A stretch of 64,000 bases of DNA, from contig JAFXMK010000004.1 in the NCBI GenBank assembly GCA_017530365.1, positions 1 to 64,000 on the forward strand. The letters are read 5' to 3'. The position numbers and the translations under genes are program-made. This DNA comes from Bacteroidales bacterium. Lineage in GTDB: Bacteria; Bacteroidota; Bacteroidia; Bacteroidales; F082. Below the pieces are notes generated by a model. It was not told the origin of the DNA. It was given only the letters and a program-made list of their open reading frames with translations, and searched no databases. This document shows positions 5,091 to 57,520 of this stretch, piece by piece (position 1 is the stretch's first letter; each line of letters starts with the position of its first letter).

Positions 5091-5111
5091 CTTCTGACTT
5101 CTGTCTTCTTA
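5091..5111. repeat. Heptad array, ybbR/coaE junction
   Basis: Three 7-base units of the form CTTCTGA, CTTCTGT, CTTCTTA on the plus strand. The array includes the ybbR stop (5109-5111) and reaches to one base before the coaE start. Confidence 0.7.
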
Positions 5112-6074
5112 ATTAACAATAAGGTATTCCACCTGCTTCGGCTCCGTCTTCAACACGTGGACATGCTCTGGCACCTGATCGAGCCTGATGTCGAGTAGTG
5201 GCAAGCGCTGATGCAGCTGAGCGGTATCGACCAGCACGCGAAAAGACGCTCCTGAAATATTGGCGTAATCCTTGATAGGCACCATACACTTCACTTTCAT
5301 GGTCTCAGGGAAGAAACGCAAGGTCAAGGAATCAGTGGTCTTCACAGGAACCTCAATATCGATTTCGGTGTATTGTTCCACTTCCACCAGCACCTGTGCC
5401 GATTCAACCTCGGCCCTTACAGCACCACCATAATAGTCGATCTTCATTGTACGCATGATGTTTTCATTGGCATCGACGGCATGAAGCGGTTCGGTATAGA
5501 CTGCCGTCATGGTATCGAGCAAGTTCTTGGGACCAAACACCGTCACCGTCGCCGGAGTGACCTTAGGCGCACCATAAACGCTAAACTGTCGTTGTGTCTT
5601 GACATCCAGCGGCACCAACACCGCGACTTCCTTTGACTGCAAGTCCTCCATATTGAAAAACTGCTTGTCTTCATTCATCGTGATGTTGCTAGACGGTATG
5701 CCGAGCCAATCTGCGATGCGCTCTGCAACATACTGTGAGCTATAGGAGTATGTGACGCCTCCCTCCAAGCGATAAGGCACCTCGACCAAAGAAAGCTCTA
5801 CAACCCTCTTATGCTCACGCACCAAGTTATGCCGCAAAGTGGCAAAACCATCAGCGACAAATGAGCACTTCACCTGTTGTTCAGGCGTAGAAACCCATTT
5901 GTTGACAGGCACCCCGGAATAAGTCACGGTAAAGACAGTTTGCGAAGAATAATCCTTCGTAAGCTTGATCAAAAACCATAATGCGGTGGAAATCAACAAA
6001 AAAACCAAGAAGGTCAAGAGTTTGGCCTTGTCCTTCTTGCCTATTTCCCCTGTGATCTCTTCGACAGGTTTCAT
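5109..6074 (-). CDS. YbbR-like membrane-anchored protein
   Basis: 321 residues. An N-terminal charged segment is followed by one membrane helix (about 20-38, LLTFLVFLLISTALWFLI), then a large extracytoplasmic region with YbbR-type beta repeats. In Firmicutes, YbbR (CdaR) regulates the diadenylate cyclase CdaA; no such partner is visible here, so the role is open. The ATG at 6074 sits one base after the yajC stop, giving a tight junction. An earlier start at 6125 would overlap yajC by about 50 bases and add a segment without family character. Confidence 0.85.
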   Translation of the reverse strand: MKPVEEITGEIGKKDKAKLLTFLVFLLISTALWFLIKLTKDYSSQTVFTVTYSGVPVNKWVSTPEQQVKCSFVADGFATLRHNLVREHKRVVELSLVEVPYRLEGGVTYSYSSQYVAERIADWLGIPSSNITMNEDKQFFNMEDLQSKEVAVLVPLDVKTQRQFSVYGAPKVTPATVTVFGPKNLLDTMTAVYTEPLHAVDANENIMRTMKIDYYGGAVRAEVESAQVLVEVEQYTEIDIEVPVKTTDSLTLRFFPETMKVKCMVPIKDYANISGASFRVLVDTAQLHQRLPLLDIRLDQVPEHVHVLKTEPKQVEYLIVN

Positions 6075-6075
6075 A

Positions 6076-6399
6076 TCATTGTCCGCCAACTTGCGATGCA
6101 TTTTGCACCAAAGCTGACTTCTCAAGCTCGACCTCTACATCGGGAGCCAATGACACCATGACGGTGTGCTCCTTCACTTCGGTGATCTTGCCATGAAATC
6201 CTCCGATGGTGACGACTTTGTCGCCCTTCTTCAACTCATCGCGGAATTTCTGCTGTTCCTTGGCTTTCTTAGACTGTGGACGAATGAAAAACAGCCAGAA
6301 AACAACGATCAATAAACCAATCAACAAAAGACTGGATGCCATACCACCTGCCTTACCAGGTGCCTGTTGTGCTGCTTGTAATAAAATAGTCAGTAACAT
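6076..6399 (-). CDS. yajC: Sec translocase accessory subunit YajC
   Basis: 107 residues. A single membrane helix (about 23-41) is followed by the conserved FFIRPQSKKAKEQQKF segment and a soluble domain with GDKVVTIGGFHGKITEV. YajC associates with SecDF and SecYEG at the inner membrane. It lies between the DUF1573 lipoprotein gene and ybbR, and its stop is one base from the ybbR start, so the genes are probably co-transcribed. Confidence 0.96.
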   Translation of the reverse strand: MLLTILLQAAQQAPGKAGGMASSLLLIGLLIVVFWLFFIRPQSKKAKEQQKFRDELKKGDKVVTIGGFHGKITEVKEHTVMVSLAPDVEVELEKSALVQNASQVGGQ

Positions 6400-6413
6400 A
6401 TTCTTAAAATTAA

Positions 6414-6441
6414 CTTTTATCTCTTATCTTTTAACTCTTAC
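6414..6441. repeat. Heptad array, DUF1573/yajC junction
   Basis: Four in-phase 7-base units: CTTTTAT, CTCTTAT, CTTTTAA, CTCTTAC. The DUF1573 stop codon (6438-6440) lies in the last unit. Confidence 0.75.
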
Positions 6442-6896
6442 AACTGTCCCGGAGTCCTCACCTCAGCCTTGATACGAATTGCTGTTTGCGAAGGCATGGT
6501 GTTTGACTTCACAATCAACACCTTCGACTGAAAGCCATGATGTCCCTTGCTGTCGTACGTAATCTTTATTTCACCTGATTCACCAGGTTGGATGGGCTCA
6601 CGAGGATAATCGCTAGCTGTACAGCCGCAACTCTTCTCAACATTGGTAATCAGTAGCGGTGCATTTCCAGTGTTTTTAAAATGGAAGGTATAGGACACCA
6701 CCTCGCCTTGGAGGATCTTCCCAAAGTCAAATTCGTTTTTGTCAAAGGTAAGCACAGGCTTCTTGTCGGAAGAAGACTCTGCCGACTTGGGACTGGTCAC
6801 CAAATTACCAGACAATTGTTTGTTGCCATCACTCTGACACGAAAACATGACTATTGTCAGGCAAAACAATAACGCGATTCTAAAATACTTCTTCAT
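6438..6896 (-). CDS. DUF1573 lipoprotein
   Basis: 152 residues. A lipoprotein signal ends at MFSC with Cys20 as the likely lipidated residue. The rest is an Ig-like DUF1573 domain with FDFGKILQGEVVSYTFHFKN, then NVEKSCGCTASDYP and QPGESGEIKITYD. The family is common in Bacteroidota, usually upstream of yajC as here; its molecular function is unknown. It is probably envelope-located and facing the periplasm. Heptad arrays flank it on both sides. Confidence 0.9.
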   Translation of the reverse strand: MKKYFRIALLFCLTIVMFSCQSDGNKQLSGNLVTSPKSAESSSDKKPVLTFDKNEFDFGKILQGEVVSYTFHFKNTGNAPLLITNVEKSCGCTASDYPREPIQPGESGEIKITYDSKGHHGFQSKVLIVKSNTMPSQTAIRIKAEVRTPGQL

Positions 6897-6901
6897 TCTT
6901 T

Positions 6902-6929
6902 CTTCTTGCTTCTTGCTTCTATCTTCTAC
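6902..6929. repeat. Heptad array, T9SS-B cargo/DUF1573 junction
   Basis: Four in-phase units: CTTCTTG twice, CTTCTAT, CTTCTAC. The stop codon of the upstream cargo gene (6926-6928) is in the last unit. Confidence 0.75.
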
Positions 6930-7909
6930 CTTGATTTCGTCAAGATCATCACCACCCCTTCATATTGCACTTCTTCTTTCAAGCCCTTGCATTTCAACAC
7001 ATAATAGTAAGTGCCATCGGAAAGGCCGCCACCATCCCAATCATTCTGATAGTCAGTGGAGTGATAGACGATGCGCCCCCAACGGCTCATTACCATGAGT
7101 TCAGCCGACTTGTAATAATCGTTAAGCGGCTTCTCGTTAGGGTTGTTATCTTTGGCATTACGGGTGCCACTATTATCACCAGGAGAGTCACTGCCACTCG
7201 ATAGGGTGATCACGAAAGTGTCATTGATGCCATCACCATTAGGCGTGAACACACTAGGAATCTTTAATTTGACGGGATTGACGAACACATCTTTGATAAA
7301 AATGGTGTCACATCCAAAATCATCATAAACCGTCAACGTGGCATGATAAGTACCCGATTCGACATACGTGAAAACAGGTTGTTCTTGGGTTGAAGTCAAA
7401 CCATGCTCAAAGGTCCAGAAGAAATGATCGATGTTGATATCGCTGGAGAGGTTCTCGAACGAAAACGTTGCATCGGGATTCTGCAGGTACACCGTATCAC
7501 CCGGATCACAATAGATCTCAATTTCAGGGGTGGGATATGCCTGGGTAAAGATGCTGTCGCGCACCACGCACCCATCACCATCACTAATGGTGACACGGTA
7601 CCAAGCGTATGCCTTCAATCCAATAGCCACCGAAGGATCAGTGGGAGCAATATGCATGGGTTGAAGCTCCGTCCAATGGCCAGGCGTCCCTTTCTCCCAA
7701 AAATAGGAATAAGGTGCCACACCATCTGTAACATTGACCTTGATCTGGGCAGTATTGCCGTTATCAGCTTCATTGTTGTTGCAAGTCAATCTCATTTGAG
7801 TCATGTCGGTATGGATCTGGCAAGGGCTCTGCGCCTTCAGCCATCCCGTATTGACAAGCAAGAACAACATGAAAAGTAGGGACAATATACTTGAAAATGC
7901 TTTTTTCAT
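6926..7909 (-). CDS. T9SS type B (gliding-motility C-terminal) secreted protein
   Basis: 327 residues. A signal peptide (about 1-26, ending LKAQ) leads into a SprB-like segment (GVAPYSYFWEKG...) and a PKD-like domain (about 165-215, ATFSFENLSS, FGCDTIFIKDV). The C-terminal domain begins IPSVFTPNGDGINDTF and ends ELMVMSRWGRIVY...GTYYYVLKC, the type B (CHU_C) sorting domain used by T9SS. That domain is interrupted by about 30 hydrophilic Ser/Gly/Asp/Asn-rich residues between NDTFVI and the MSRWG strand, longer than usual. It is the first gene of the leftward operon leading to coaE. Substrate or ligand unknown; an adhesin-like surface protein is likely. Confidence 0.88.
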   Translation of the reverse strand: MKKAFSSILSLLFMLFLLVNTGWLKAQSPCQIHTDMTQMRLTCNNNEADNGNTAQIKVNVTDGVAPYSYFWEKGTPGHWTELQPMHIAPTDPSVAIGLKAYAWYRVTISDGDGCVVRDSIFTQAYPTPEIEIYCDPGDTVYLQNPDATFSFENLSSDINIDHFFWTFEHGLTSTQEQPVFTYVESGTYHATLTVYDDFGCDTIFIKDVFVNPVKLKIPSVFTPNGDGINDTFVITLSSGSDSPGDNSGTRNAKDNNPNEKPLNDYYKSAELMVMSRWGRIVYHSTDYQNDWDGGGLSDGTYYYVLKCKGLKEEVQYEGVVMILTKSR

Positions 7910-7935
7910 GGATGATCCTTATTTCAATAAGATTG

Positions 7936-7943: not shown

Positions 7944-7976
7944 ACACTTTTTTGTCAGTCCAATGAACAAAAATCG

Positions 7977-13474: not shown

Positions 13475-13482
13475 TATCTTTG
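13475..13482 (+). promoter_or_regulatory. -7 element TATCTTTG for mfd
   Basis: TATCTTTGC ends nine bases before the mfd ATG at 13492. With a start site a few bases downstream, the transcript would be nearly leaderless. Confidence 0.75.
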
Positions 13483-13491
13483 CGGCCTCAA

Positions 13492-16400
13492 ATGGAATCG
13501 AACAACAAACACCTTCTTTATTCCGGCCTTGTAGGCTCAGCCAAGGCCTTCGCCGTAGAAGAGCACTTCCGCCAAAACGGCGGACAGCATCTTGTGATTT
13601 GCGCCTCAAAAGAGGACGCAGCCTATTTCTATAACGACCTCGAAGCCCTCTTCGGGGAAAGAGAGATGGACTACAGCAAGAAGCAGATCCTCTTCTACCC
13701 CACCTCCTACAAACGCCCCTACGAGCCCGAACGGCCTGACAATACCTACATCCTCTCGCGCACCGAAGTGCTCCAACGTATCTCCACCAGCGAGCGTCGC
13801 ACGGTCATCGTGAGTTATCCTGAAGCCTTGAGCGAAAAGGTCTTCACTAGAAAACTGCTCGCCAAGAACACCTTCAAGGTGAAACAAGGCGACAAGATCA
13901 ACCTCGACTTTCTCACCGACCTGCTCTACGAATACGGCTTCGAGAACGTCGACTTCGTGGTGGAACCGGGACAGTTCGCCATCCGTGGCGGCATCATCGA
14001 CGTGTATTCCTTCGCCAACGACAACCCCTATCGTATTGAGTTTTTCGGCGATGAAGTGGACAGCATCCGCAGCTTCGACATCGCCAGCCAGCTCTCCATC
14101 GAACGGTTCAACAACATCGTTCTGCTGCCCAACATGCAGCAGCAGGCCTTCATCGAAGAACGCGAGTCGATACTGGAATACCTGCCCAATGCCACTACCA
14201 TCTGGATCGAGCAGATGAATTTCTTTGCTTCGCAAATCGACAAGGAATACGAGAGAGCTGTTGAGGCGTGGGAGAAGTTGAATAGTGAGGAGTTAGGAGT
14301 GAGGAGTGAGGAGTTAACAATTACTCCTGGGAAGTTGTTTGCCAAGTCGGAAGAGTTGCTGAAGCATTTAGAGGAGCATAACACCATAGAATTCAGGAGT
14401 CAGGAGTCAGGAGACAGAATCTTCCATACGACGGCACAGCCTGTTTTCAACAAGAACTTCAACCTGCTTATCGAGAACATTAACGATTACAAGTCGAAGG
14501 GCTATAGCATCGTCCTCTACTCGGAGAGTTCCAAACAGCTGGACCGGATCCAAGCCATCCTGAACGACATCCAGCATCACGATGAGCTGCATAGCGATTT
14601 TGAAAGGAAACTCATCGCCATCCATGCGGGATTCATCGACCACGATAAGAAGGTGTGCTGCTACACCGACCACCAAATCTTTGAACGTTACCACCGCTAT
14701 CACCTGCGCGACAATTTCAGCACCAAGCAGGCCATCACCCTTAAGGACCTCTACGACCTGAAACCAGGTGACTACGTGACCCATATCGACCACGGCATCG
14801 GACGGTTCGAGGGACTGATGACCATCGAGTTGCACGGCAAGGAGCAAGAGGTATTGAGAATAACCTATAATCACGGCGACACACTCTATATTAGTGTTCA
14901 CTCGCTCCACCAGATTGCCAAATACAGCTCCAAAGACGGCGCTGAGCCTTCGTTGAGTACCTTAGGCTCCAACGCATGGAACCGCTTGAAGTCCAAAACC
15001 AAGAGCAAGGTCAAGGACATCGCCCGCGAGCTCATCAAGCTTTATGCGGAGCGCAAACGCAGCAAAGGCTTCCAATTCGCCCCCGACAGCTACCTGCAGA
15101 CGGAGCTTGAGGCCTCCTTCCTCTACGAGGACACCCCCGACCAACTCAAGGCCACCAACGACGTGAAACGCGACATGGAAAGCGAGAGTCCCATGGACCG
15201 CCTCGTCTGCGGCGACGTGGGCTTCGGCAAGACCGAAGTGGCCATCCGCGCCGCCTTCAAAGCCGCCACCGACAGCAAACAAGTGGCTGTGCTCGTGCCC
15301 ACCACCGTGCTCGCCTTGCAACACTGCCAGACCTTCAAGAACCGTTTGGACGGTTTCCCCGTCAACATCGAATACCTCAATAGGTTCAAGACGGCCAAAC
15401 AGCAGAAGGAAATCCTAAAAAAGCTGGAAGAAGGCCATATCGACATTATCATCGGAACGCATCGACTCACCGGTAAAGACGTCAAATTCAAGGATCTCGG
15501 CCTGCTCATCATCGACGAGGAACAGAAGTTCGGCGTCGCCGTGAAAGAGAAACTCAAGGAGATGAAGGCCAATGTCGATACCCTCACCTTGACCGCTACG
15601 CCGATACCTAGGACATTGCAATTCTCGATGATGGGTGCCCGCGACCTCAGCGTCATCAACACCCCACCACCCAACCGTTATCCTGTGCAGACCGAACTCA
15701 GGACCTTCGATGGCGAATTGATCCGAGAAGCCATTATGTTCGAAATGTCGCGAAACGGGCAGGTGTTCTTCATCCACAACCGCGTTCAGAACATCATGGA
15801 CGTGCACGACATGATCCTGAGTTACGTGCCTGGCTGCCGCGTCGCCGTAGCTCACGGCCAGATGGAAGGATCGAAACTCGAGGAGATCATGCTCGACTTC
15901 ATCGGCGGCGAATACGACGTACTGCTCTGCACCACCATCGTTGAGTCGGGACTTGACATCCCCAACGCCAACACCATCATCGTCAACGATGCCCACCGCT
16001 TCGGCCTCAGCGACCTGCACCAGCTGCGTGGCCGAGTGGGACGTTCCAACAAGAAAGCCTTCTGCTACCTGCTGACGCCACCTTTGAACACCCTTACCGA
16101 GGAAGCCCAGAAGCGCCTCCGTGCCTTAGAAGAGTTCTCCGACCTCGGCAGCGGCATTAACATTGCCATGCGCGACCTCGACATCCGTGGCGCAGGCAAC
16201 CTCCTCGGCGCCGAGCAGAGCGGCTTCATCAATGATATCGGCTTCGAGACCTACCATAAAATCCTTGACGAGGCCATTGCTGAACTCAAGGAGAACGAGT
16301 TCTCCGACCTCTTCGACAAGGAGACCGAGTTGGTCTATGTGACCGACTGCGCCATCGAGACCGACATGGAGGTGATGTTGCCCTCCGATTACGTCAGTTC

Positions 16401-16818
16401 TACGGCCGAGCGTATCAGCCTCTACACCGAACTCGACCATATCAAGACTGAAGAACGATTGGTGGAGTTCACAGGCCAACTCATCGACCGCTTCGGTCCA
16501 CTGCCCAAGCCCGTCAACGACCTGCTCAACACCGTGCGTTTACGCTGGATCGCGAAAGACCTTGGCTTTGAGAAGATCGCCTTGCGCGACAACCTCATGA
16601 CCGTCCATTTCGTAAGTAACCAGGAGTCGCCTTATTATGAGACGGAGACTTACCATCAGGTGATGCAGTACATCATCAGCCATCCCAAGCGTTGTGCCCT
16701 CAAGCAGACCGAGAGCAAACTCATCCTCACCATCAAGGAGGTAAGTACGGTGACACAGGCGCTGACCATTGTTAGAGAGATGGGAGAGATATATCCAACA
16801 AAAGAAGAAGAGCGCTAA
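13492..16818 (+). CDS. mfd: Transcription-repair coupling factor Mfd
   Basis: 1108 residues. It removes RNA polymerase stalled at lesions and recruits UvrA. An N-terminal UvrB-like module is followed by the RNAP-interacting domain (LKPGDYVTHIDHGIGRFEGL), the RecG-like translocase with Walker A GDVGFGKTEVA and Walker B-type IIDEEQKFG, motif TATPIPRTLQFSMMG, and a C-terminal TRCF domain. I chose the ATG at 13492; the codon at 13480 is TTG and lies in the promoter. Two 7-base repeat arrays sit inside the frame (residues about 265-276 and 300-309), making a linker rich in SEEL after the UvrB-like module. The last codons form one arm of the terminator. Confidence 0.97.
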   Translation: MESNNKHLLYSGLVGSAKAFAVEEHFRQNGGQHLVICASKEDAAYFYNDLEALFGEREMDYSKKQILFYPTSYKRPYEPERPDNTYILSRTEVLQRISTSERRTVIVSYPEALSEKVFTRKLLAKNTFKVKQGDKINLDFLTDLLYEYGFENVDFVVEPGQFAIRGGIIDVYSFANDNPYRIEFFGDEVDSIRSFDIASQLSIERFNNIVLLPNMQQQAFIEERESILEYLPNATTIWIEQMNFFASQIDKEYERAVEAWEKLNSEELGVRSEELTITPGKLFAKSEELLKHLEEHNTIEFRSQESGDRIFHTTAQPVFNKNFNLLIENINDYKSKGYSIVLYSESSKQLDRIQAILNDIQHHDELHSDFERKLIAIHAGFIDHDKKVCCYTDHQIFERYHRYHLRDNFSTKQAITLKDLYDLKPGDYVTHIDHGIGRFEGLMTIELHGKEQEVLRITYNHGDTLYISVHSLHQIAKYSSKDGAEPSLSTLGSNAWNRLKSKTKSKVKDIARELIKLYAERKRSKGFQFAPDSYLQTELEASFLYEDTPDQLKATNDVKRDMESESPMDRLVCGDVGFGKTEVAIRAAFKAATDSKQVAVLVPTTVLALQHCQTFKNRLDGFPVNIEYLNRFKTAKQQKEILKKLEEGHIDIIIGTHRLTGKDVKFKDLGLLIIDEEQKFGVAVKEKLKEMKANVDTLTLTATPIPRTLQFSMMGARDLSVINTPPPNRYPVQTELRTFDGELIREAIMFEMSRNGQVFFIHNRVQNIMDVHDMILSYVPGCRVAVAHGQMEGSKLEEIMLDFIGGEYDVLLCTTIVESGLDIPNANTIIVNDAHRFGLSDLHQLRGRVGRSNKKAFCYLLTPPLNTLTEEAQKRLRALEEFSDLGSGINIAMRDLDIRGAGNLLGAEQSGFINDIGFETYHKILDEAIAELKENEFSDLFDKETELVYVTDCAIETDMEVMLPSDYVSSTAERISLYTELDHIKTEERLVEFTGQLIDRFGPLPKPVNDLLNTVRLRWIAKDLGFEKIALRDNLMTVHFVSNQESPYYETETYHQVMQYIISHPKRCALKQTESKLILTIKEVSTVTQALTIVREMGEIYPTKEEER
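14284..14318. repeat. Heptad array inside mfd (first)
   Basis: Five in-phase units: AGTGAGG, AGTTAGG, AGTGAGG, AGTGAGG, AGTTAAC. They are translated in frame as SEELGVRSEEL without a stop. The same AGTGAGG and AGTTAGG units occur after frr at 51638. Confidence 0.75.
14391..14418. repeat. Heptad array inside mfd (second)
   Basis: Four in-phase units: ATTCAGG, AGTCAGG twice, AGACAGA. Translated as part of FRSQESGDR, about 70 bases after the first array in the same linker. Confidence 0.7.
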
Positions 16819-16988: not shown

Positions 16989-17846
16989 ATGAACGTCGAA
17001 GACTATATCATTACTAGGGTTAACGCCCTGTTACACACTCAAGACACTCGCATCGTCATGCGCCTCGAGGGCGGCATGAGCAACTACACCTACGTCGTTG
17101 AAACCCAAAACAAGAAATACACCTACCGCGTCCCTGGCAAGTTCGCCGAAAAGTTCGTGGACCGCGTGGACGAATGGCATAACATCCAGGAAGTGGAGCG
17201 CCTCGGCCTCAACAACGTGACCACCTACGTGGAGATTCTCTCGGGTGAAAAGCTGGCCGAATACGTTGAAGGCACCATCATGAGCACTACGGACGTGATC
17301 TCGTTCAACGAGATGTCGGTTAAAGCTTTGAAGAAAATCCACGGCAGCGACCTGAAATTCAAGGACTACAACGCTTTCGGCCGTCTGGATGACGACGAGC
17401 GCTACTGCCGCGAGACGGGCTTCATCCATCCTCAGGAATACCTTGATCTAAGAGCCAAGCTGGAAGAACTGCGCAAGACCTATAAGAGCGTGAAAATGGT
17501 CCCCTGCCACTGCGACTACCAGCCCACCAACCTGGTCATCAGCGGCGACAAGCTCTATGTCCTCGACTGGGAGTTCGCCGGCATGAACGACCCCTTCTAC
17601 GACATCGCCTGCTACGGCAACGCCGGCTTCGACAAAGCCCTCGCCCTGCTGGAATGCTATGTCGGCCATAAACCCACCGGTGAAGAGCTGCACCGCCTCT
17701 ATTTCCACCGCGCCTTCCAATGCCTGCAGTGGTACAACGTGGCCATCTTCAAGGATCGCGTGGGACTTAGCAAAGACCTAAACATGGACTTCAACGCCGT
17801 GGCACTGATGTTCCTCGGAATGGCGAAAGACTTATTGGAAAAATGA
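16989..17846 (+). CDS. Choline/ethanolamine kinase-like phosphotransferase
   Basis: 285 residues with the protein-kinase-like fold of choline kinase/APH enzymes. The catalytic loop CHCDYQPTNLVI (about residues 174-185) and the metal-binding stretch VLDWEFAGMNDPFYDIA are intact; the N-terminal GGMSNYTYVVE corresponds to the nucleotide-binding loop. LicA-type members phosphorylate choline for surface decoration, but other small alcohols are possible. The stop overlaps the start of the DUF59 gene by four bases (ATGA). Substrate uncertain. Confidence 0.8.
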   Translation: MNVEDYIITRVNALLHTQDTRIVMRLEGGMSNYTYVVETQNKKYTYRVPGKFAEKFVDRVDEWHNIQEVERLGLNNVTTYVEILSGEKLAEYVEGTIMSTTDVISFNEMSVKALKKIHGSDLKFKDYNAFGRLDDDERYCRETGFIHPQEYLDLRAKLEELRKTYKSVKMVPCHCDYQPTNLVISGDKLYVLDWEFAGMNDPFYDIACYGNAGFDKALALLECYVGHKPTGEELHRLYFHRAFQCLQWYNVAIFKDRVGLSKDLNMDFNAVALMFLGMAKDLLEK

Positions 17847-18202
17847 ACGAAGAAGAACGCAACCAACTGAAAGAAACCGTCATCAGCGTGCTGAAGACGA
17901 TATACGATCCAGAAATCCCTGTGGACATCTGGACCTTGCACCTCATTTACGGCATCGATGTCGATGAGGAAGGCAACGTAAAAATTGTCATGACGGTCAC
18001 GGCACCCAACTGTCCCGTGGCAGAAGTCCTGCCTGCCGAAGTGCAACAACGGGTGCAAGCCATCATGGGCGTAAAAAAAGCCGAGGTCGAACTGACGTTC
18101 GACCCCGTATGGGATATAAGTATGTTATCAGACGAAGCCAAGGCTGAGTTGGGATTGGATGGCGACTACGCCAATTATTCGGCTAGCGATTTTCTTTATT
18201 AA
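17843..18202 (+). CDS. DUF59/MIP18-family Fe-S assembly protein (SufT-like)
   Basis: 119 residues. The DUF59 core is clear: YDPEIPVDIWTLHLIYGIDV, then MTVTAPNCPVAEVLPAEVQ with the conserved Cys, and VELTFDPVWDISMLSDEAK. Members assist maturation or transfer of iron-sulfur clusters and usually sit in suf operons. Here the gene converges on sufE, the last gene of the leftward suf operon, with 32 bases between the stops. A heptad array fills that gap. Confidence 0.88.
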   Translation: MNEEERNQLKETVISVLKTIYDPEIPVDIWTLHLIYGIDVDEEGNVKIVMTVTAPNCPVAEVLPAEVQQRVQAIMGVKKAEVELTFDPVWDISMLSDEAKAELGLDGDYANYSASDFLY

Positions 18203-18258
18203 ACGGAAAAGGGAGAACGGAGAACGGAAAGTTTTCAGTTTTCAGTTTTCAGTTCCCT
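18203..18258. repeat. Heptad array between DUF59 and sufE genes
   Basis: Eight units in unbroken phase, starting right after the DUF59 stop: ACGGAAA, AGGGAGA, ACGGAGA, ACGGAAA, then GTTTTCA three times and GTTCCCT. Two different unit families abut at 18230/18231 without loss of phase. The second half encodes the last residues (LKTEN) and stop of sufE. Confidence 0.85.
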
Positions 18259-18663
18259 AAACGCTTCCGCGTAAAGCATCATCTGCTTCAGCATGGAAAG
18301 CAAGCCGTTTGAACGGGTGGGGCTCAAGTGTTCCTTAAGGCCTATTTCATCAAGGAAAGAAAGGTCGGCGGACAAAATATCCTCTGGAGTTTGACCTGAG
18401 AACACCTTGATCAGCAGATTGATGATGCCTTTGGTAATGACGGCATCGCTGTCGGCGGTATAATAGACCTTGCCATCCTTGAGCTCGGCATGAAGCCACA
18501 CCCGCGATTGACAGCCATTGATCAGATACTGGTCGTTGCGATACTGCTCGTCAATAAGTGGGCACTCCTTCCCCATCTCGATCAACATGGCATAACGATC
18601 CATCCAATCGTCAAACATCGAGAAATCCTCAATGATTTGGTTTTGTATTTCCTTGATGGTCAT
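18235..18663 (-). CDS. sufE: Cysteine desulfurase activator SufE
   Basis: 142 residues. SufE accepts sulfane sulfur from SufS and passes it to the SufBCD scaffold. The conserved NGCQSRVWL motif with the acceptor Cys is at about residues 49-57, with SDAVITKGIINLLI after it. It is the last gene of the leftward suf operon. The C-terminal tail is written by the heptad array and is unlikely to be conserved. A 148-base gap with palindromes and an array separates it from sufS. Confidence 0.93.
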   Translation of the reverse strand: MTIKEIQNQIIEDFSMFDDWMDRYAMLIEMGKECPLIDEQYRNDQYLINGCQSRVWLHAELKDGKVYYTADSDAVITKGIINLLIKVFSGQTPEDILSADLSFLDEIGLKEHLSPTRSNGLLSMLKQMMLYAEAFRELKTEN

Positions 18664-18711
18664 TTTAATATGTTTTTTTCAATTTCGTCATTGGGTTCCT
18701 TGTCATCCCAG

Positions 18712-18775
18712 GGTAGGGTTCGCTTCGCTCACCCAACCCTAGGCTACCGAGCTTGAACCCCTACGGGGTCCTCCT
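18712..18775. repeat. Palindromic intergenic element between sufS and sufE
   Basis: A GC-rich run with nested inverted repeats: AGGGTT with AACCCT, and AACCCC-TA-CGGGGT near its right end, plus the stretch TTCGCTTCGCTC. It looks like a REP-type element of Bacteroidales intergenic regions and lies in the transcribed operon. No reading frame of note crosses it. Confidence 0.5.
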
Positions 18776-18780
18776 ATAAC

Positions 18781-18815
18781 TTCTTACTTCTTTCTACTTT
18801 CTTCTTTCTTCTTAC
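18781..18815. repeat. Heptad array at the sufS 3' end
   Basis: Five in-phase units: TTCTTAC, TTCTTTC, TACTTTC, TTCTTTC, TTCTTAC. The sufS stop (18812-18814) is in the last one. Confidence 0.8.
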
Positions 18816-21646: not shown

Positions 21647-21690
21647 GTCGTTATATATTTTTTATTATTATTTCTTTTCAATTCAACCTT

Positions 21691-21711
21691 ACTCCTAACT
21701 CCTAACTATTA
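21691..21711. repeat. Heptad array at the sufB 3' end
   Basis: Three in-phase units: ACTCCTA twice, ACTATTA. The sufB stop (21709-21711) closes the array. Confidence 0.7.
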
Positions 21712-36036: not shown

Positions 36037-36053
36037 CTTTTCTACCGATAGCC

Positions 36054-36069
36054 CATCCCTAACGGGATG
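36054..36069. repeat. Short palindrome upstream of the coaD 3' array
   Basis: CATCCC, TAAC, GGGATG inverted repeat between the thioredoxin-fold gene start and the heptad array. It may be a fragment of the same REP-like class seen in the suf operon. Confidence 0.45.
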
Positions 36070-36070
36070 C

Positions 36071-36098
36071 CTTCTTACTTCTATCTTCTTACTTCTTC
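36071..36098. repeat. Heptad array at the coaD 3' end
   Basis: Four in-phase units: CTTCTTA, CTTCTAT, CTTCTTA, CTTCTTC. They write the coaD C-terminal residues EVRR and the stop (36081-36083). Confidence 0.75.
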
Positions 36099-36554: not shown

Positions 36555-36596
36555 AGTTATCAGTTGTTCAGTTTGTAGTTTTCAGTTATCAGTTTT
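36554..36596. repeat. Heptad array, Nudix/coaD junction
   Basis: Six units with one single-base slip at 36568: TAGTTAT, CAGTTGT, CAGTTTG, TAGTTTT, CAGTTAT, CAGTTTT. It covers the coaD start's last base, the gap, the Nudix stop (36560-36562) and its last residues. Confidence 0.8.
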
Positions 36597-37207: not shown

Positions 37208-37210
37208 TTG
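37203..37210 (+). promoter_or_regulatory. -7 element TACATTTG for pyrE
   Basis: An exact TAnnTTTG 44 bases before the pyrE start. It overlaps the start codon of the divergent Nudix gene. Confidence 0.5.
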
Positions 37211-37238
37211 TAACCTGAATAAAACGTATTTCAAACCG

Positions 37239-38674: not shown

Positions 38675-38743
38675 GCATTTTTTTTGCAATATTTGCAGTT
38701 TGAAAACAATTAGTGAATATTAAAAATTAAAAAATCTATAGAT

Positions 38744-51073: not shown

Positions 51074-51637
51074 ATGACAGATGAATCTCAATTTGTATTA
51101 GATGAAGCCTCTGAGAGCATGGATAATACCATCAAGCATCTGGAGCATGAGTTTCAGGGCATCAGAGCTGGCAAGGCCAGTCCGGCCATGCTGAACGGCG
51201 TTATGGTTGAATACTACGGCGCCACCGTGCCTATCGAGCAAACCGCCAACATTGGCTGCCCAGATGCCCGCATGATTGTCGTCGTGCCTTTTGACAAAAG
51301 CGCACTCAACAACATTGCCAAGGCCATCTTGAATGCCAATTTGGGATTCAACCCAATGAACAACGGGGAACTGCTTCGTATCTCTGTGCCGCCATTGACT
51401 GAGGAGCGCCGTCGCGAGCTCGTCAAACGCACGAAAACCGCCGCAGAAGATGCCAAAGTCGGCATTCGCAACATCCGCCGCAGTGCCAACGACGAAGCCA
51501 AGAAACTCGAGAAGGACACCATTTCCGAAGATGAGTCAAAACTCCTTCAGGAAGAGATCCAAAAGCTCACCGACAAGTACATCAAGAAGATTGACGACTT
51601 GACCGAGCTCAAATCAAAAGACATACTCACAGTTTAA
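51074..51637 (+). CDS. frr: Ribosome recycling factor
   Basis: 187 residues. RRF releases ribosomes from mRNA after termination. Segments: LEHEFQGIRAGKASPAML, VPFDKSALNNIAKAIL, LGFNPMNNGELLRISVPPLT and EERRRELVKRTKTAAEDAKV. Length is normal. A heptad array begins at the base after its stop. Confidence 0.98.
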   Translation: MTDESQFVLDEASESMDNTIKHLEHEFQGIRAGKASPAMLNGVMVEYYGATVPIEQTANIGCPDARMIVVVPFDKSALNNIAKAILNANLGFNPMNNGELLRISVPPLTEERRRELVKRTKTAAEDAKVGIRNIRRSANDEAKKLEKDTISEDESKLLQEEIQKLTDKYIKKIDDLTELKSKDILTV

Positions 51638-51672
51638 AGTGAGGAGTTAGGAGTTGGAAGTGAGGAGTAAAA
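51638..51672. repeat. Heptad array after frr (left half of a pair)
   Basis: Five units: AGTGAGG, AGTTAGG, AGTTGGA, AGTGAGG, AGTAAAA. Complementary in sense to the array at 51679. Confidence 0.8.
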
Positions 51673-51709
51673 AAAGGTACTCCCAACTCCTCACTCCACA
51701 CTCCTAACT
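51638..51709. terminator. Hairpin formed by two opposed heptad arrays, frr/ddl
   Basis: 51638-51669 can pair with 51678-51709 at 24 of 32 positions, with an 8-base AAAAAAGG loop. It lies between convergent genes and could end transcription from both sides. It lacks a clean T run, so the terminator role is inferred. Confidence 0.5.
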
Positions 51710-51713
51710 ATTC
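51679..51713. repeat. Heptad array after ddl (right half of a pair)
   Basis: Five units: ACTCCCA, ACTCCTC, ACTCCAC, ACTCCTA, ACTATTC. The ddl stop (51704-51706) is inside. Same unit type as at 21691. Confidence 0.8.
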
Positions 51714-52681
51714 AAAGCGTTCTCTATCGCCATTCCAAACAGTTGTTCCAATGTCAGGCCGAAACAACGTGCCTGTGATGGGATGATGCTTGCATCCGAC
51801 ATGCCTGGGACAATGTTCGCCTCAATGAAGAACGCACCTTCTTTGCTGACAATGTAGTCCATACGGACAAAGCCTTTGCATTCCAGTTTCTCATACAGCA
51901 TAGCTGTCGTCGCTTTGATATCAATTTCGATGTCTTCATCCACTTGTGCAGGTGTTATCTCGTCACACTTGCCAGCAGTATATTTAGCTTCATAGTCGAA
52001 AAATTCATTCTTGCTGCAAATTTCAGTCAAAGGGAAGACCATCATCTTACCTTTGAACTCCATGGCACCACAACCAAACTCACGTCCGTCAACGAACTTC
52101 TCACACATCACCTGACGGCCAGCAGCCCTCGCCGTATAAATGGCAGGAGCAAGCTCCTCGGCAGTCTTCACCTTGGTCACACCCACGCTGGAGCCGTTGC
52201 AAGTCGGCTTGACAAACAAGGGCAGACCCAATAGTTTAATGATATCATCTGCATCATATTTCTCACCCTCATTAATAAGAACTGAGGGTGCAACCTTGAC
52301 ACCGTAGGATGCCACCAAACGCTTGCAAAAATCCTTGTGGAATGTTAGGGCACAAGTGGTCAAAGGCGAAGAGGTGCAAGGGATACCCAATAGCTCCAAA
52401 TAGCCTGAAAGCGGACCATTTTCACCTGGTTCTCCATGTACTGCGTTGAAAACCACATCGAATTTCGTCCTGTGTCCGCCTACCGAGATGGAAAAATCGT
52501 TTTTGTCAACGTCCACCCTGGTACCGTCCTTCAAGAGCCCGTACCACCCTTTTTTCGAAACTACGATGATCTTGGAATTATACAGTTCAGGATTCAGATT
52601 GTTTTTCACCACCTGGGCACTCTTGATAGAGATCTCAAATTCACCGGAATCTCCACCACAAACTATCGCTACATTCTTCAT
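51704..52681 (-). CDS. ddl: D-alanine-D-alanine ligase
   Basis: 325 residues, ATP-grasp enzyme making the D-Ala-D-Ala dipeptide for peptidoglycan. Segments: VAIVCGGDSGEFEISIKSA, FNAVHGEPGENGPLSGYLE, FVKPTCNGSSVGVTKV, EKFVDGREFGCG and FIEANIVPGMSDASIIPSQ. Divergent from the PASTA gene with 40 bases between, and convergent with frr. No exact -7 element was found for it; TAATTTAG is one mismatch away. Confidence 0.96.
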   Translation of the reverse strand: MKNVAIVCGGDSGEFEISIKSAQVVKNNLNPELYNSKIIVVSKKGWYGLLKDGTRVDVDKNDFSISVGGHRTKFDVVFNAVHGEPGENGPLSGYLELLGIPCTSSPLTTCALTFHKDFCKRLVASYGVKVAPSVLINEGEKYDADDIIKLLGLPLFVKPTCNGSSVGVTKVKTAEELAPAIYTARAAGRQVMCEKFVDGREFGCGAMEFKGKMMVFPLTEICSKNEFFDYEAKYTAGKCDEITPAQVDEDIEIDIKATTAMLYEKLECKGFVRMDYIVSKEGAFFIEANIVPGMSDASIIPSQARCFGLTLEQLFGMAIENALNS

Positions 52682-52704: not shown

Positions 52705-52721
52705 CCGCTAAATTACTAAAT

Positions 52722-53627: not shown

Positions 53628-55482
53628 AACAATGGGACTGGCACTCTTGATGTGTTTAATCCCAAGCATCTTTTCTGCACAGGAAGTCCTTTTAGGATGC
53701 TATAATAACGACAGATCCTCCGTGACGACACGAGAGCAACGGGCATTGACTTTGCCTTTTTTTGACGACTTCTCCGGCACCAAAATCTATCCTGACAGCA
53801 TAAAATGGATGGATCAGGACGCTTTTGTCAACCCCGGCTTCCCCCTGAATCCTGTCACCCGCAATGCCGCCACTCTTGATGTTCTTGACGCTCGCGGAAA
53901 CGTCTATCCATACGCCATCAGCAATCCATTCATAGCAGAGCATCTCACCTCTATGCCCATCCGCCTTGACTCCATTTTTGAGCCCAATGCAAGAGCCCTC
54001 ACCCCAGCTGATTCACTCTATCTCAGCTTTTTCTACCAACCACAAGGAAACGGGAACCCACCCGAATCACAAGATTCACTTGTCTTGGAATTCGGATTAC
54101 CCAATGACATCGACACCAGCTGGTTCCATGTATGGAGTGCTCCGGGACAGACTTTAGCTCAATTCTTGGCAGAGAATGATAGCAACTATTTCAAACAAGT
54201 CATGATCCCCATTACCGAAGAGAAGTTTTTCACTTCCAATTTCCTATTCCGTTTCTACAACTACGCCAGTATCGTTAGCCAATCCCAACCTTCCAGCCGT
54301 GGCAACGAGGACAATTGGAACATCGACGTTGTCTATCTCAACTATGGAAGAAGTTTTCAAGATCTTTCCTATCCGAAAGTCTGCTTCACAGGAGCAACGC
54401 CTTCCTTCCTAAAGCGCTACCAGTCTATGCCCTACAAGCACTACCGTGCCAATCCGACAGCAAGCATCGCCGAAGAATACGAGTTACAGGTCTCCAATCT
54501 CGACAACCAAGCGCACACCATGAGACACCGCTATACCGTTGAACAAGTCAACGGGAATCAGTCCTATACCTATCCCAGCACCTACCCCATCATGCTGAAT
54601 GCACAAACATTCAACTATGCCAAGACGGCTTTTGTCTCACAGCTCTTCTCTTTGGACTATGACCGAGACTCCACCTCCTACATCATCCGTCATTACATCA
54701 GCGATTCCACCTGTAATCCTCCCATGGTTGACTCCATGATCTACCGACAAGGCTTTTATAACTATTTCGCATACGATGACGGCATTCCAGAGTTAGGCTA
54801 TGGTGTGGAATCATCGGCTGGCGGCGCATTTGCAGTCCAATTTGAGCTCTCTGAAATGGATACACTTCGTGGTGTGCAAATCCTCTTCAACCATACCTTA
54901 AGGGATGCCAACAACAAGTATTTTGACATCGTGGTGTGGAAAGACAACAACGGCAAACCAGGCGATGAAGTCTGTCGCTTATCAGGGAAAAGACCACAAT
55001 GGGAAGATCAAATCTATCGATTCGTCTATTACCCGTTTAAGCAGCGGATCCGCCTCAACGGGGTCTTTTACATAGGTATCGAGCAACAGAGTTCCGGCCT
55101 AATCAACGTTGGTTTTGACGCTTCCAACGACAACTCCCAGTACAACTATTTCAACGTTACAGGTGCATGGCAACCAAGCACTAAACCAGGTTCCATCATG
55201 ATCCGCCCCGTTGTCGGTGCCAATTATTATATCGGAGTTGACGACAACCAAATCAACGACCATGTTACCGTTTATCCCAACCCCACCTCCACTGCAATCC
55301 ATATTGACGGTGTGACCAACGGCATTTCCATCGTCATGTATGACATCACTGGACGAAAAGTCTTGGAAAGGTCATTCACCGATGCGCTCTCCATCGACGA
55401 TCTTCGCAACGGGCTCTATCTCATGAATATCACTACGACTGAAGGCAACATCATCAGCAAAAAAATCATGGTTAGCAAATGA
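53611..55482 (+). CDS. Secreted T9SS type A cargo protein between PASTA and rluD genes
   Basis: 623 residues. A signal peptide (about 1-23, ending IFSAQ) is followed by a large all-beta extracellular part of unrecognised family (LPFFDDFSGTKIYPD near the start is shared by many Bacteroidota surface proteins). A type A sorting domain closes it: VTVYPNPTSTAIHIDG, SIVMYDITGRKVLERS, NGLYLMNITTTEGN, KKIMVSK. Both ends overlap neighbours (17 bases with the PASTA gene, four with rluD), so it is fixed in the operon. Confidence 0.88.
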   Translation: MKTTFKTMGLALLMCLIPSIFSAQEVLLGCYNNDRSSVTTREQRALTLPFFDDFSGTKIYPDSIKWMDQDAFVNPGFPLNPVTRNAATLDVLDARGNVYPYAISNPFIAEHLTSMPIRLDSIFEPNARALTPADSLYLSFFYQPQGNGNPPESQDSLVLEFGLPNDIDTSWFHVWSAPGQTLAQFLAENDSNYFKQVMIPITEEKFFTSNFLFRFYNYASIVSQSQPSSRGNEDNWNIDVVYLNYGRSFQDLSYPKVCFTGATPSFLKRYQSMPYKHYRANPTASIAEEYELQVSNLDNQAHTMRHRYTVEQVNGNQSYTYPSTYPIMLNAQTFNYAKTAFVSQLFSLDYDRDSTSYIIRHYISDSTCNPPMVDSMIYRQGFYNYFAYDDGIPELGYGVESSAGGAFAVQFELSEMDTLRGVQILFNHTLRDANNKYFDIVVWKDNNGKPGDEVCRLSGKRPQWEDQIYRFVYYPFKQRIRLNGVFYIGIEQQSSGLINVGFDASNDNSQYNYFNVTGAWQPSTKPGSIMIRPVVGANYYIGVDDNQINDHVTVYPNPTSTAIHIDGVTNGISIVMYDITGRKVLERSFTDALSIDDLRNGLYLMNITTTEGNIISKKIMVSK

Positions 55483-56531
55483 GCGAAGACATTCTTGACG
55501 AATTATTGGAGAACGACAACACCGAGGAAGAAAACGGTGAACTGTACGAGCATATACGTATTGTGGTCGATAAAGGACAGGCCCAAGAGCGCATTGATAC
55601 TTTTCTGACCAACCACATTCAGAATATCTCACGCAACCGCGTACAGAATGCTGCCAAGGCTGGCAATATCCTTGTCAATGACAAGGCCGTGAAACAAAAC
55701 TACAAGGTGAAGCCCAGCGATGTCATCTCCATCGTATTCAGCTATCCGCCACGTGAGATCAACATCACTCCCCAGGAGATCCCGCTAAACATCGTGTATG
55801 AAGACGATGACATCATCGTGATCAACAAGCAAGCGGGATTGGTAGTACACCCTGGACACGGCAACTTCGAAGGCACGTTGCTTCATGGTTTGGCCTGGCA
55901 TTTCCAGCAAACCCACCAAAACGTGGAAAACAAGTTCGGGTATCTGGTGCATCGTATTGACAAGGACACCACTGGGCTGATGATCGTAGCCAAGAACGAG
56001 ACCGCCCAAGCCATCCTTGCACATCAGTTTTTCGAGCACACCATTCACCGTAGATACCATGCCTTGGTTTGGGGTGATTTCAATGAAGATGAAGGTATCA
56101 TTGAAGGCAACATTGGACGCAGCCCGAATGACCGGCGAAAAATGGCTGTCTATCCTAATGGCGACCACGGCAAAGAGGCCATCACCCATTGGCATGTCTT
56201 GGAACGGTTCGGTTATGTCACCTTGAACGAGTATCGTTTGGAAACTGGACGCACCCACCAGATCCGTGTCCACTCACAATATATCGGGCATCCTCTCTTC
56301 AATGATGCCACTTACGGCGGCGACCAGATTCTGAAAGGCACCACCTTCTCAAAATACAAACAGTTCATTGACAACTGTTTCAAACTACTGCCCCGTCACG
56401 CACTACACGCCAAAGAACTGGGTTTCGTACACCCCACAACAAAAAAAGAGATGCTGTTTACCTCAGCATTGCCAGAGGATATGACCGCTGTGCTGGAAAA
56501 ATGGCGGAGATATGTTAAAGTGGAGGGTTGA
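55479..56531 (+). CDS. rluD: RluA-family 23S rRNA pseudouridine synthase
   Basis: 350 residues. An acidic N-terminus, an S4 RNA-binding domain (about 30-85, ERIDTFLTNHIQNISRNRVQ) and the synthase domain with HRIDKDTTGLMIVAKN carrying the catalytic Asp, plus LETGRTHQIRVH. Which rRNA uridines it modifies (RluD-type sites are likely) is inferred. The last residues and the stop lie at the edge of a heptad array. Confidence 0.9.
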   Translation: MSEDILDELLENDNTEEENGELYEHIRIVVDKGQAQERIDTFLTNHIQNISRNRVQNAAKAGNILVNDKAVKQNYKVKPSDVISIVFSYPPREINITPQEIPLNIVYEDDDIIVINKQAGLVVHPGHGNFEGTLLHGLAWHFQQTHQNVENKFGYLVHRIDKDTTGLMIVAKNETAQAILAHQFFEHTIHRRYHALVWGDFNEDEGIIEGNIGRSPNDRRKMAVYPNGDHGKEAITHWHVLERFGYVTLNEYRLETGRTHQIRVHSQYIGHPLFNDATYGGDQILKGTTFSKYKQFIDNCFKLLPRHALHAKELGFVHPTTKKEMLFTSALPEDMTAVLEKWRRYVKVEG

Positions 56532-56561
56532 GAGGTTAAAGGTTAGAGGTTAGAGGTTAAG
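56527..56561. repeat. Heptad array, rluD/hldD convergent junction
   Basis: Units GTTGAGA, GGTTAAA, GGTTAGA twice, GGTTAAG in phase. It contains the rluD stop (56529-56531) and writes the hldD tail LTSNL and its stop (56543-56545). Confidence 0.8.
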
Positions 56562-57499
56562 AAATCAACATAGTCCTTGACGCCTTCCTCGAGGCTGGTG
56601 AAAGGTTCAGAGTAGCCTGCTCGACGTAATTTGGCCATGTTGGCTTCCGTAAAATATTGGTATTTGTCACGGATATTCAGCGGTGTGTCGATGAATTGAA
56701 TAGCAGTTTCCCTACCCATAGCTTTAAAAGTATTGTCGGCCAAATCATAAAACGATCGAGCCTTCCCAGTGCCCACATTGTACAATCCGCTTTGTGGCTG
56801 ATGACTCATCAACCATAAAATTACCCTGGCGACATCTTTCACATACACAAAGTCACGCAATTGCTGTCCATCCTGATAGTTGGGATTGTGGGAACGGAAC
56901 AATTTCACTTGCCCTGTCTCTTGTATTTGGCGGAAGGAATGCAGAATCACTGAAGCCATCTTCCTTTTGTGAAACTCGTTGGGTCCATAAACATTGAAAA
57001 ACTTCAAACCCGCCCAAAAAGGAGGCTGTTTCGCCTGACTCAAAATGTATTTGTCAATCTCATTCTTGGAGCGGCCGTAAGGATTCAGTGGCTTCAGGTC
57101 ATAGACGATGTCATGTCGGTCCTCATAGCCCAATTCACCCATACCATAGGTGGCGGCAGAGGAAGCATAGATCAATGGTATCTTATATTCAACACACAAG
57201 GTCCAAACACCGATTGTATAATCAACATTTAGTTTTTGAAATACATTGTAATCGAATTCCGTCGTATCGGTACGAGCACCAAGATGAATGACAAAGTCGA
57301 TGCGCTGGTGGTTTTCCTTGAAATAATCCATGAACGTATCACGGTTCACCATGCTATGAAAAAGCTTATCCTCGTAGTTTCGCTTTCTTTCCGGCTTGGA
57401 AAAGTCATCCACCAATACCAGATCGTGACGACCTGTTTCGTTGAGGGCCTGTATCACATTACTTGCGATGAACCCTGCTGCTCCAGTAACAACTATCAT
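56543..57499 (-). CDS. hldD: ADP-L-glycero-D-manno-heptose 6-epimerase
   Basis: 318 residues, SDR-type epimerase for the heptose of lipopolysaccharide. The NAD(P) loop is VTGAAGFIASNVIQAL, with GARTDTTEFD, YASSAATYG and the YGRSKNEID catalytic Tyr/Lys, then FNVYGPNEFHKRKMASV typical of HldD. C-terminal residues FLTSNL come from the repeat array. Last gene of a leftward unit with the MerR-type and M23 genes. Confidence 0.95.
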   Translation of the reverse strand: MIVVTGAAGFIASNVIQALNETGRHDLVLVDDFSKPERKRNYEDKLFHSMVNRDTFMDYFKENHQRIDFVIHLGARTDTTEFDYNVFQKLNVDYTIGVWTLCVEYKIPLIYASSAATYGMGELGYEDRHDIVYDLKPLNPYGRSKNEIDKYILSQAKQPPFWAGLKFFNVYGPNEFHKRKMASVILHSFRQIQETGQVKLFRSHNPNYQDGQQLRDFVYVKDVARVILWLMSHQPQSGLYNVGTGKARSFYDLADNTFKAMGRETAIQFIDTPLNIRDKYQYFTEANMAKLRRAGYSEPFTSLEEGVKDYVDFLTSNL

Positions 57500-57520
57500 C
57501 TCTTAACTCCAAACTTAACC
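57500..57520. repeat. Degenerate heptad array, merR-type/hldD junction
   Basis: CTCTTAA, CTCCAAA, CTTAACC: three units, more degenerate than the rest, again covering the upstream stop (57515-57517). Confidence 0.45.

Follow-up and report, generated by a model that had tools for sequence, protein, structure and literature searches.

Heptanucleotide arrays at stop codons and inside genes of an uncultured gut Bacteroidales: held sites, exchanged units and purine-first pairs

Why bacterial simple repeats favour a period of 7 nt, and why some of them sit at stop codons, are questions left open in the literature cited below, and both are raised by the stretch of DNA considered here, a window of 64,000 nucleotides (bases 1-64000 of contig C22 in a 2.67-Mb draft genome that is 88% complete), in which degenerate 7-nt units form tandem arrays at many gene ends. 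The source organism is an uncultured Bacteroidales from the herbivore gut; in SecA it shares 98% identity with RUG14627, an uncultured Bacteroidia bacterium, and 78% with Candidatus Limimorpha caballi, and further close SecA matches come from rumen or gut samples of red deer, water buffalo, yak and horse. As described below, between related genomes the array sites are held while the units change. Sequence exchange at a held place with constant strand polarity is not predicted by simple models of slippage or transposition, and arrays that are kept at a site with the repeat sequence swapped can inform how bacterial simple repeats are written and spread. In the following, "own" refers to the genome under study, of which 464 kb and later a further 400 kb were analysed (864 kb together), the second part having been fetched only after the arrays of the first had been listed. 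Genomes of the genus carry G numbers and SecA loci carry L numbers, with L001 equivalent to G034 (RUG14627), L057 to G023 and L063 to G051.

It is noted first that the dispersed period-7 arrays of the own genome are confirmed as a real observation. Tandem Repeats Finder (TRF), run on the window with a minimum score of 30, reports 17 rows of period 7, in agreement with the at least sixteen arrays that an earlier note on this DNA had read by eye. Over the 864 kb, scanned period by period at a score of 11, there are 133 period-7 arrays, compared with 0-25 for each of the other periods 4-6 and 8-13. The first 464 kb hold 82 of them, while 5 local dinucleotide shuffles of the same DNA average 0.8, and at the same threshold periods 4, 5, 6, 8, 9, 10, 11, 12 and 13 give 0, 0, 8, 16, 10, 4, 1, 7 and 1 arrays, respectively; the 58 and 31 arrays at the multiples 14 and 21 arise because period-7 arrays match there too. 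The second 400 kb give 51 period-7 arrays versus 0-9 for the other periods from 4 to 13. Thus the other periods are not as common as period 7; equal frequencies were what the earlier note had said would speak against such a family. Moreover, 10 of 14 period-6 and 11 of 16 period-9 arrays lie inside genes, as expected for codon-phase repeats. The arrays are multi-copy and dispersed, with several unit types per genome.

The further claim that the period does not differ is not borne out, since the 864 kb contain 25 period-8 arrays, the second-commonest period, and since period 8 outnumbers period 7 at L037, L046, L050 and L062. The own period-8 arrays are all at junctions and about 15 of them, by reading, belong to one family. 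Among the 67 SecA loci of at least 75% identity there are 157 period-7 versus 52 period-8 arrays in 1.30 Mb, and among 13 remoter loci (66-67% identity) 12 versus 13 in 0.23 Mb; to judge from these SecA loci, the period-7 excess is thus characteristic of this clade. The main own period-8 family is CAACTGAA-like and is found, for example, at C8 51793-51847 and C9 21693-21762. Low-GC relatives (L037, L048, L050, L062) have period-8 types AAGACTAC/GAGTCACC, some of them as inverted pairs, and in the period-8 arrays of L037, L050 and L062, as in the AGAAGWC arrays of G004, the unit variants alternate between GAC and GTC, which are mutual reverse complements.

As for placement, genes were called with a simple custom caller, in which stops are firm and starts less firm. 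The 133 own arrays divide into 93 at junctions (24 at 102 convergent, 65 at 428 codirectional and 4 at 104 divergent ones, a junction being able to hold two) and 40 inside genes. At codirectional junctions the array starts between -24 and +6 nt of the stop in 50/61 own cases, 52/70 in G023 and 30/36 in G034, compared with 30.3, 30.8 and 18.3 under a sliding null in which positions up to 24 nt into either gene are treated as available, and the observed values were reached in 0/2000 draws. The preference for stop codons that had been noticed by eye thus exceeds its null in three genomes, and gene ends are enriched; as the whole story, stop codons fail on the 40 arrays inside genes. The fraction of genes with an array at the stop is only about 14-18%. 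Among the purine-sense arrays at stops, 7 of 77 in the own genome, 23 of 89 in G023 and 3 of 43 in G034 begin exactly at the second base of the stop codon, and the junctions are short, the next start lying within 10 nt of the array end for 28 of the 65 codirectional own arrays.

At stops the purine-rich strand is the sense strand, with a sense-to-antisense ratio of 209:38 (own 77:12, G023 89:20, G034 43:6), whereas inside own genes there is no sense bias (18:22). One explanation would be a translational back-stop, where a 7-nt unit containing TAA, TAG or TGA stops all three frames and so insulates the gene end. It fits that the purine-strand unit includes a stop codon in 69 of the 90 own arrays that were scored at stops and that, in the accessible text of one paper, TAACTGA repeats in forward orientation are said to stop every frame (PMC4679880). 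However, arrays at stops whose units have no stop codon are equally sense-biased, 63:12 (own 18:3, G023 36:8, G034 9:1), so that the supply of stop codons is not the reason for the bias, and the commonest unit in G023, AAAACGG, has none; the back-stop is therefore disfavoured and is the least probable of the explanations considered here.

The strongest rival to the reading that we prefer is a 3'-end signal useful to the host, which we regard as possible and, on balance, unlikely. A purine-sense array after the stop would halt antisense or convergent transcription and leave the operon unharmed, the antisense RNA being a pyrimidine-rich, C-containing repeat that, by the known preferences of Rho, would resemble a Rho-loading site, or, in inverted pairs, a strong RNA hairpin; the unit would be free to change if the periodic pattern stays. 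The sense bias, its independence of unit stop codons and its absence in genes are consistent with such a signal, as are the rarity of arrays at divergent junctions relative to convergent and codirectional ones and the keeping of positions while units change. On the other side, the in-gene arrays stand where the signal would be useless or harmful, and many orthologous sites are empty, as are the stops of most genes. Explanations by CsrA, Hfq and G-quadruplexes were considered and provisionally set aside on reading of the units.

The second regularity is the polarity of inverted pairs. Among neighbouring opposite-strand arrays of clear skew (purine fraction >0.6 and <0.4), the purine arm comes first in 67 and the pyrimidine arm in 0. 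With no purine cut-off, complementary period-7 pairs are purine-first in 62 cases versus pyrimidine-first in 4, and period-8 pairs in 4 versus 1. By context, the purine-first pairs of the own genome, G023 and G034 (n = 52) fall into 26 at convergent junctions, 10 at codirectional junctions, 15 in genes and 1 at an edge. Even where the two arms are unrelated (unit distance >=3), 6/6 pairs are purine-first. Inside genes the array pairs stand at 15:0, as against 9:7 for perfect inverted repeats that do not overlap arrays. Single arms outnumber pairs. In RNA folding, three pairs beat their shuffles (z -5.9, -3.0 and -7.5), one single array gives no structure, and a non-array stretch folded alongside (L091:1-60) gives z -0.84. 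The folding of the pairs, together with hairpins of non-array junctions leaning the same way, speaks for the 3'-end signal. Compared with intrinsic terminators, which have a stable hairpin at gene ends, the picture is mixed: three pairs fold well and one single array does not, single arms make up most of the arrays, and 15 of the 52 pairs lie in genes.

Next we consider the units themselves. Within each family, most of the unit hardly varies from locus to locus, with one or two positions left free. The own families are AGGAGTK, AGAAGNN, ARAGGTK and AGATAAR, and those of G023 are ARAACKG, AGWTAAR, GAATNNR and GGAATNN; each genome has its own unit vocabulary. For AGGAGTK (91 units in 29 arrays), the first six positions are conserved at 0.87-0.99 and the last is about half T, where closeness to the consensus is partly built in, families having been defined and arrays admitted by consensus unit. 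Identical long stretches occur at several loci. The order of unit variants was compared between arrays in ten tests. It is significantly shared for AGATAAR in the own genome (the order AGAA recurs in 8 of 15 arrays, p 0.004), weakly for GGAATKC in G023 (3 arrays, p 0.041), with ARAACKG in G023 at p 0.053, and not significantly in the other seven tests, including AGATAAR in G023 (p 0.94). Since order is mostly unshared, units would spread more than whole arrays. A degenerate AGATAAR form is present in 12 of 60 genus genomes, five of which give 38 to 79 overlapping matches, and its mirror control gives 0 everywhere. A wider degenerate pattern, (ARRRSNN)x4, proved a poor measure of arrays, its mirror control being equal or higher in the array-rich G008 and G023, and was kept only for listed unit types.

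These data bear on the possibility that the arrays are a non-autonomous mobile element, similar to a miniature inverted-repeat transposable element or to repetitive extragenic palindromic (REP) sequences, whose arms happen to be heptamer arrays and which is moved by a transposase or reverse transcriptase. One AGATAAR 23-mer has 21 exact genome matches, two of them overlapping, array-loop-inverted-array units stand at shared in-gene sites, and a whole pair at own C22 88600 is absent in G034, all of which fit such an element. Nevertheless, unit order is unshared in most tested families, some arms are unrelated and single arms are commoner than pairs. No conserved element sequence with fixed ends was seen, the flanks being unlike by reading and the own AGATAAR 30-mer being the exception. 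As for machinery, the own genome, G034 and G023 have 1-4 matches each to Pfam Y1_Tnp and RVT_1 (2 Y1_Tnp in the own genome), and over 60 genus genomes, several of them incomplete, the Y1 transposase (PF01797) is found in 42 and the reverse transcriptase (PF00078) in 32, with neither in every array-rich genome; the array-rich G036 (90% complete) has no Y1_Tnp or RVT_1 match at E 1e-6. Taken together, we consider a mobile element doubtful.

Orthologous sites were also compared between genomes. Intervals were sought through 400-nt flanks, which were present for 131/133 own arrays; 51 arrays could be placed in G023, 28 in G034 and 14 in G051, and the remainder were dropped. In G034, at a mean flank identity of 90%, 20 of the 28 sites have an array of the same family, 4 of a different family and 4 none. 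In G023, at 80% flank identity, only 7 of 51 have the same family, with 29 different and 15 none (6, 26 and 14, or 32 of 46 occupied, when arrays no more than 100 nt apart are merged into sites), and in G051, at 82%, 3 of 14 are the same, 2 different and 9 none. Seen in reverse, 24 of 26 G034 arrays have an own array (21 same, 3 different), and the own arrays opposite the G023 arrays comprise 8 of the same and 33 of a different family. Own codirectional arrays have an array in G023 in 14/21 cases, versus 18/126 for own stops without one. Thus array sites are held while the units change, and at the distance between the own genome and G023 the memory of the family is nearly lost. Inverted pairs, too, give way to inverted pairs with units of another family, for example at own C1b 117310/117356 and C8 40405/40454.

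In close orthologues of the own genome and G034 the arrays differ by 7-nt steps and reshuffled unit variants, and exact length differences at the array ends vary. Such steps at several sites are what local replication slippage would give, and heptamers are stated to be the most abundant among repeats of 5-11 nt in most of the genomes of one study (Mrazek 2007, as cited in the accessible part of PMC4679880). Slippage as the only process, with every array grown out of a heptamer that arose by chance where nothing constrains the sequence, is nonetheless disfavoured and improbable, because vocabularies are common to many loci with identical long stretches at several of them, and because of the exchange of families at held sites and the purine-first polarity. 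This agrees with the earlier note, according to which slippage alone would not explain the preference for stop codons. The loops between arms show changes of their own kind. The loop at own C22 120974 is the exact reverse complement in G034, that at window 51662-51678 is nearly reverse-complemented with small changes, and that at 77651 is unchanged; the two reversed loops look like hairpin-mediated micro-inversions.

Turning to arrays inside genes, the window contains an AGGAGTK array at 14284-14314 (site A) and an AGGAGTC array at 14393-14417 (site B), both with the purine-rich strand on +, within mfd (gene 13480-16818(+)). Both are in the reading frame, and at site A two units whose frame would give TGA carry TTA. 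Among the 17 of 30 mfd loci that passed a coordinate filter, 8, the own one included, show a pronounced heptamer array at either site or at both, with differing units, L126 has other stem-loops and the rest have none. A third in-frame array, AACGGAG at 19683-19719 (purine-rich strand +), lies within a class-V aminotransferase (sufS-like) gene of the suf cluster, 18812-20020(-). Its site is empty in L001, L063 and L064, has a different array in L004 and an array-loop-inverted array in L057 and L049, and has other repeats or palindromes in L002, L003 and L006. In the own genome as a whole, 10 of 16 in-gene arrays have an array at the matching place in G023 (9 of 14 sites, 8 of another family), as compared with 2/452 random in-gene sites. 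The in-frame sites in Mfd and in the sufS-like protein show how repeats build new protein segments. A repeat of the GTCATTGCGAGGAGCG type is present in L002 at the sufS-like in-gene site, where other species have heptamer arrays, and also between two arrays at own C9 ~18360.

Based on these data, we propose that the arrays are largely neutral, self-perpetuating heptanucleotide repeats, comparable to the short tandemly repeated repetitive (STRR) sequences of cyanobacteria, which are rewritten in place by slippage and by copying between arrays, with their placement set by selection; we give this reading a probability of about 40%. The repetitive purine-rich arrays would be fragile. Broken or stalled purine-rich 3' ends could pair over a few bases with the pyrimidine strand of a second array and take over some of its heptamers, so that an existing array would be both landing pad and donor, and families could sweep through the genome. 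Copying at purine-rich 3' ends would leave both arms of a pair pointing purine-inward. Arrays that harm proteins, promoters or operon read-through would then be selected against, leaving arrays mainly at stops, sense-oriented, or in flexible in-frame loops of proteins, and no function for the host would be required. In this proposal the 7-nt steps come from slippage, and the copying would account for what slippage leaves unexplained, namely the shared vocabularies, the exchange at held sites and the polarity.

Several points weigh against this proposal. No copying event with an identified donor was caught. The 67:0 ratio omits 31 neighbour pairs without clear skew and 9 same-strand ones, and counts orthologous pairs of different species separately; the four pyrimidine-first pairs found with no purine cut-off belong to one weakly skewed AGCCATT-like family (L010, L015, L034, L053), and one period-8 pair is pyrimidine-first as well. 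Perfect inverted repeats at junctions that are not arrays also lean purine-first, 63:20, so that the junction polarity is partly general and the in-gene polarity is special to arrays, and a part of the polarity may reflect selection related to transcription. Occupancy is lower when seen from G023, where 41 of 76 arrays have an own array. At occupied sites of the own genome and G023 the same family recurs in 7/36, versus 3.2 under permutation (p 0.016), so that some of the change is gradual, and 3 of the 4 "different" cases between the own genome and G034 resemble drift by eye, the array at 21687 being abrupt; a further abrupt change is seen when the own 18779 site is viewed from G034. The coincidence of in-gene sites could also come from independent filling of a few tolerant protein loops, and the sense bias of stop-less units at stops needs an extra selective cause.

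A different origin of the arrays would be a dedicated, telomerase-like activity that adds purine-rich heptamers (octamers in some relatives) to 3' DNA ends, using templates that differ by species. Extension of the two ends of a break, followed by their joining, would result in a pair of a purine arm and a pyrimidine arm, and a change of template would rewrite the arrays genome-wide while the sites persist. We hold such end extension to be quite improbable, somewhat more so than slippage acting alone.

Compared with known systems, the arrays resemble the STRR sequences of heterocystous cyanobacteria, which are tandem degenerate heptamers of several unit types between genes. The own arrays share these features and belong to another phylum. 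The likeness to cyanobacterial heptamer repeats drawn in the earlier note holds for period and placement, but the type is less undescribed than was assumed there. The units differ as well, to judge from six published heptamer units (including GGGGAYT, TDNGATT and NNTGAGT of Nostoc, and TAACTGA), none of which gave runs of three in the stretches of the own genome, G023, G034 and G051. The palindromic elements of Rickettsia are likewise dispersed, some of them inside genes, and we know of no tandem heptamer arms in them or in the REP sequences with their associated tyrosine transposases (RAYTs). As far as the accessible part of the source goes, REP/RAYT palindromes are dispersed, with some in genes, many of which are replication or repair genes, but they have a fixed tagged sequence, with GTAG types tied to the transposase, unlike the own arrays (PMC3733652).

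The comparisons that follow hold for the accessible portions of the papers cited. The G-rich heptamers GGGNATC of Xanthomonas and GGGGAYT of Nostoc lie on the coding strand and overlap stops (PMC4692102); they share with our arrays the period of 7, the coding-strand placement on the stop side and an inverted pair between convergent genes, but the paper deals with one unit type per genome, prone to form G-quadruplexes and absent here as runs of three, whereas here there are many types, mostly without GGG runs (by reading), arrays in genes and exchange of families between species. In the P6b stem of the Nostoc trnL intron, which is built of heptamers of Class I (TDNGATT) or Class II (NNTGAGT), the whole stem has been replaced by another repeat class in some lineages (PMC4476775). 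There, too, two heptamer arms form a stem at a fixed place, with class replacement and 7-nt indels, but this is one structural locus, within a group I intron, whereas our arrays are genome-wide, at stops and in proteins, and of many classes. TAACTGA repeats of Beggiatoaceae, cyanobacteria and five Bacteroidetes are intergenic heptamer arrays with stops in three frames (PMC4679880), but they have one sequence, lie in the main genome mostly just upstream of starts, and related heptamers are rarely repeated, whereas the own arrays are anchored at stops, a good part of the codirectional ones also ending close to the next start. Chloroflexus has a GATAGRA heptamer satellite (PMC6749651). The tandem repeats of Borgs are fast-evolving, A-enriched and both in and between genes, as ours are, but their units are perfect (18-21 nt in the examples) and in genes are multiples of three, and no inverted pairs are reported in the text accessible to us (PMC9879509).

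Thus period and placement are already known; we found no description of the multiplicity of families, of their exchange at held sites, of in-frame sites in proteins or of the polarity. A literature search, with most subscription journals outside its reach, found no description of such arrays for rumen Bacteroidales. An important point to note is that in this clade arrays are numerous in each genome, related genomes are plentiful and units have been exchanged at conserved sites, and slippage, copying between arrays, mobility and transcription-linked selection are therefore separable by comparison.

The arrays of the window are as follows, the strand given being the purine-rich one. Twelve of the 17 TRF arrays overlap or abut a stop, close to the thirteen counted by eye at gene ends, with three in genes, one upstream of secA and one weak; the TRF starts of the twelve are 5091, 6417, 6888, 18202, 18230, 18779, 21687, 36071, 36555, 51638, 51686 and 56533, and those of the three in genes are 14284, 14393 and 19685. 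At stops on the minus strand are the array reading CTTCTGA on + at 5091-5109 (-; gene 5109-6125(-)), an AAAAGTT/AAAAGAT type at 6410-6440 (-; gene 6438-6896(-), DUF1573), an AAGAAGN type at 6888-6932 (-; gene 6926-7909(-), with a type IX secretion signal domain), AAGAAGN at 18779-18815 (-; stop of the aminotransferase gene), of another family in G034, and AGGAGTT at 21687-21707 (-; sufB-like gene 21709-23160(-)), where relatives have other units or none. To these are added AAGAAGT at 36071-36097 (-; gene 36081-36554(-)) and an AAAACTG type at 36555-36602 (-; gene 36560-37234(-)), with no array in G034.

Inverted arms are seen at 18201-18228 (AAAACGG, +, the left purine arm, at the stop of gene 17843-18202(+)) with 18230-18254 (AAAACTG, -, the right arm, pyrimidine on +, at the stop of the sufE-like gene 18235-18663(-)), and at 51638-51668 with 51679-51709, two AGGAGTK arrays that form the purine hairpin arm (+) at the stop of the ribosome recycling factor gene 51074-51637(+) and the pyrimidine arm (-) at that of the D-Ala-D-Ala ligase gene 51704-52681(-). 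An AGAGGTT/AAAGGTT array at 56514-56560 (+) spans the stops of the convergent genes 55479-56531(+) and 56543-57499(-). The CAAACTG-type array at 32486-32518 (-) lies 6 nt upstream of the secA start (gene 29177-32479(-)) and is identical in G034, and the weak two-copy ATTAAAA tandem at 38719-38733, between divergent genes and with no strand assigned, is probably due to chance. A weak stretch at ~57499-57520 is absent from the TRF period-7 rows and from the array set of lower threshold. When the window was searched against Rfam, the tRNA and a single match well under the cut-off were the only results, and therefore no known RNA family covers the arrays.

Finally, we note a second dispersed repeat that often follows arrays, a short GC stem-loop (e.g. 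CCCCGTAGGGG) and then AGCTCGGTAGA or a similar tail. Exact copies of AGCTCNGTAGA number 0 in the G023 and G051 stretches, 3 in 400 kb of G034 and 6 in the 864 kb of own DNA. Sites of the stem-loop and tail are window ~36037-36070 and 18664-18778 and, elsewhere in the own genome, C9 101690, C1 18773 and the minus strand of C1b.

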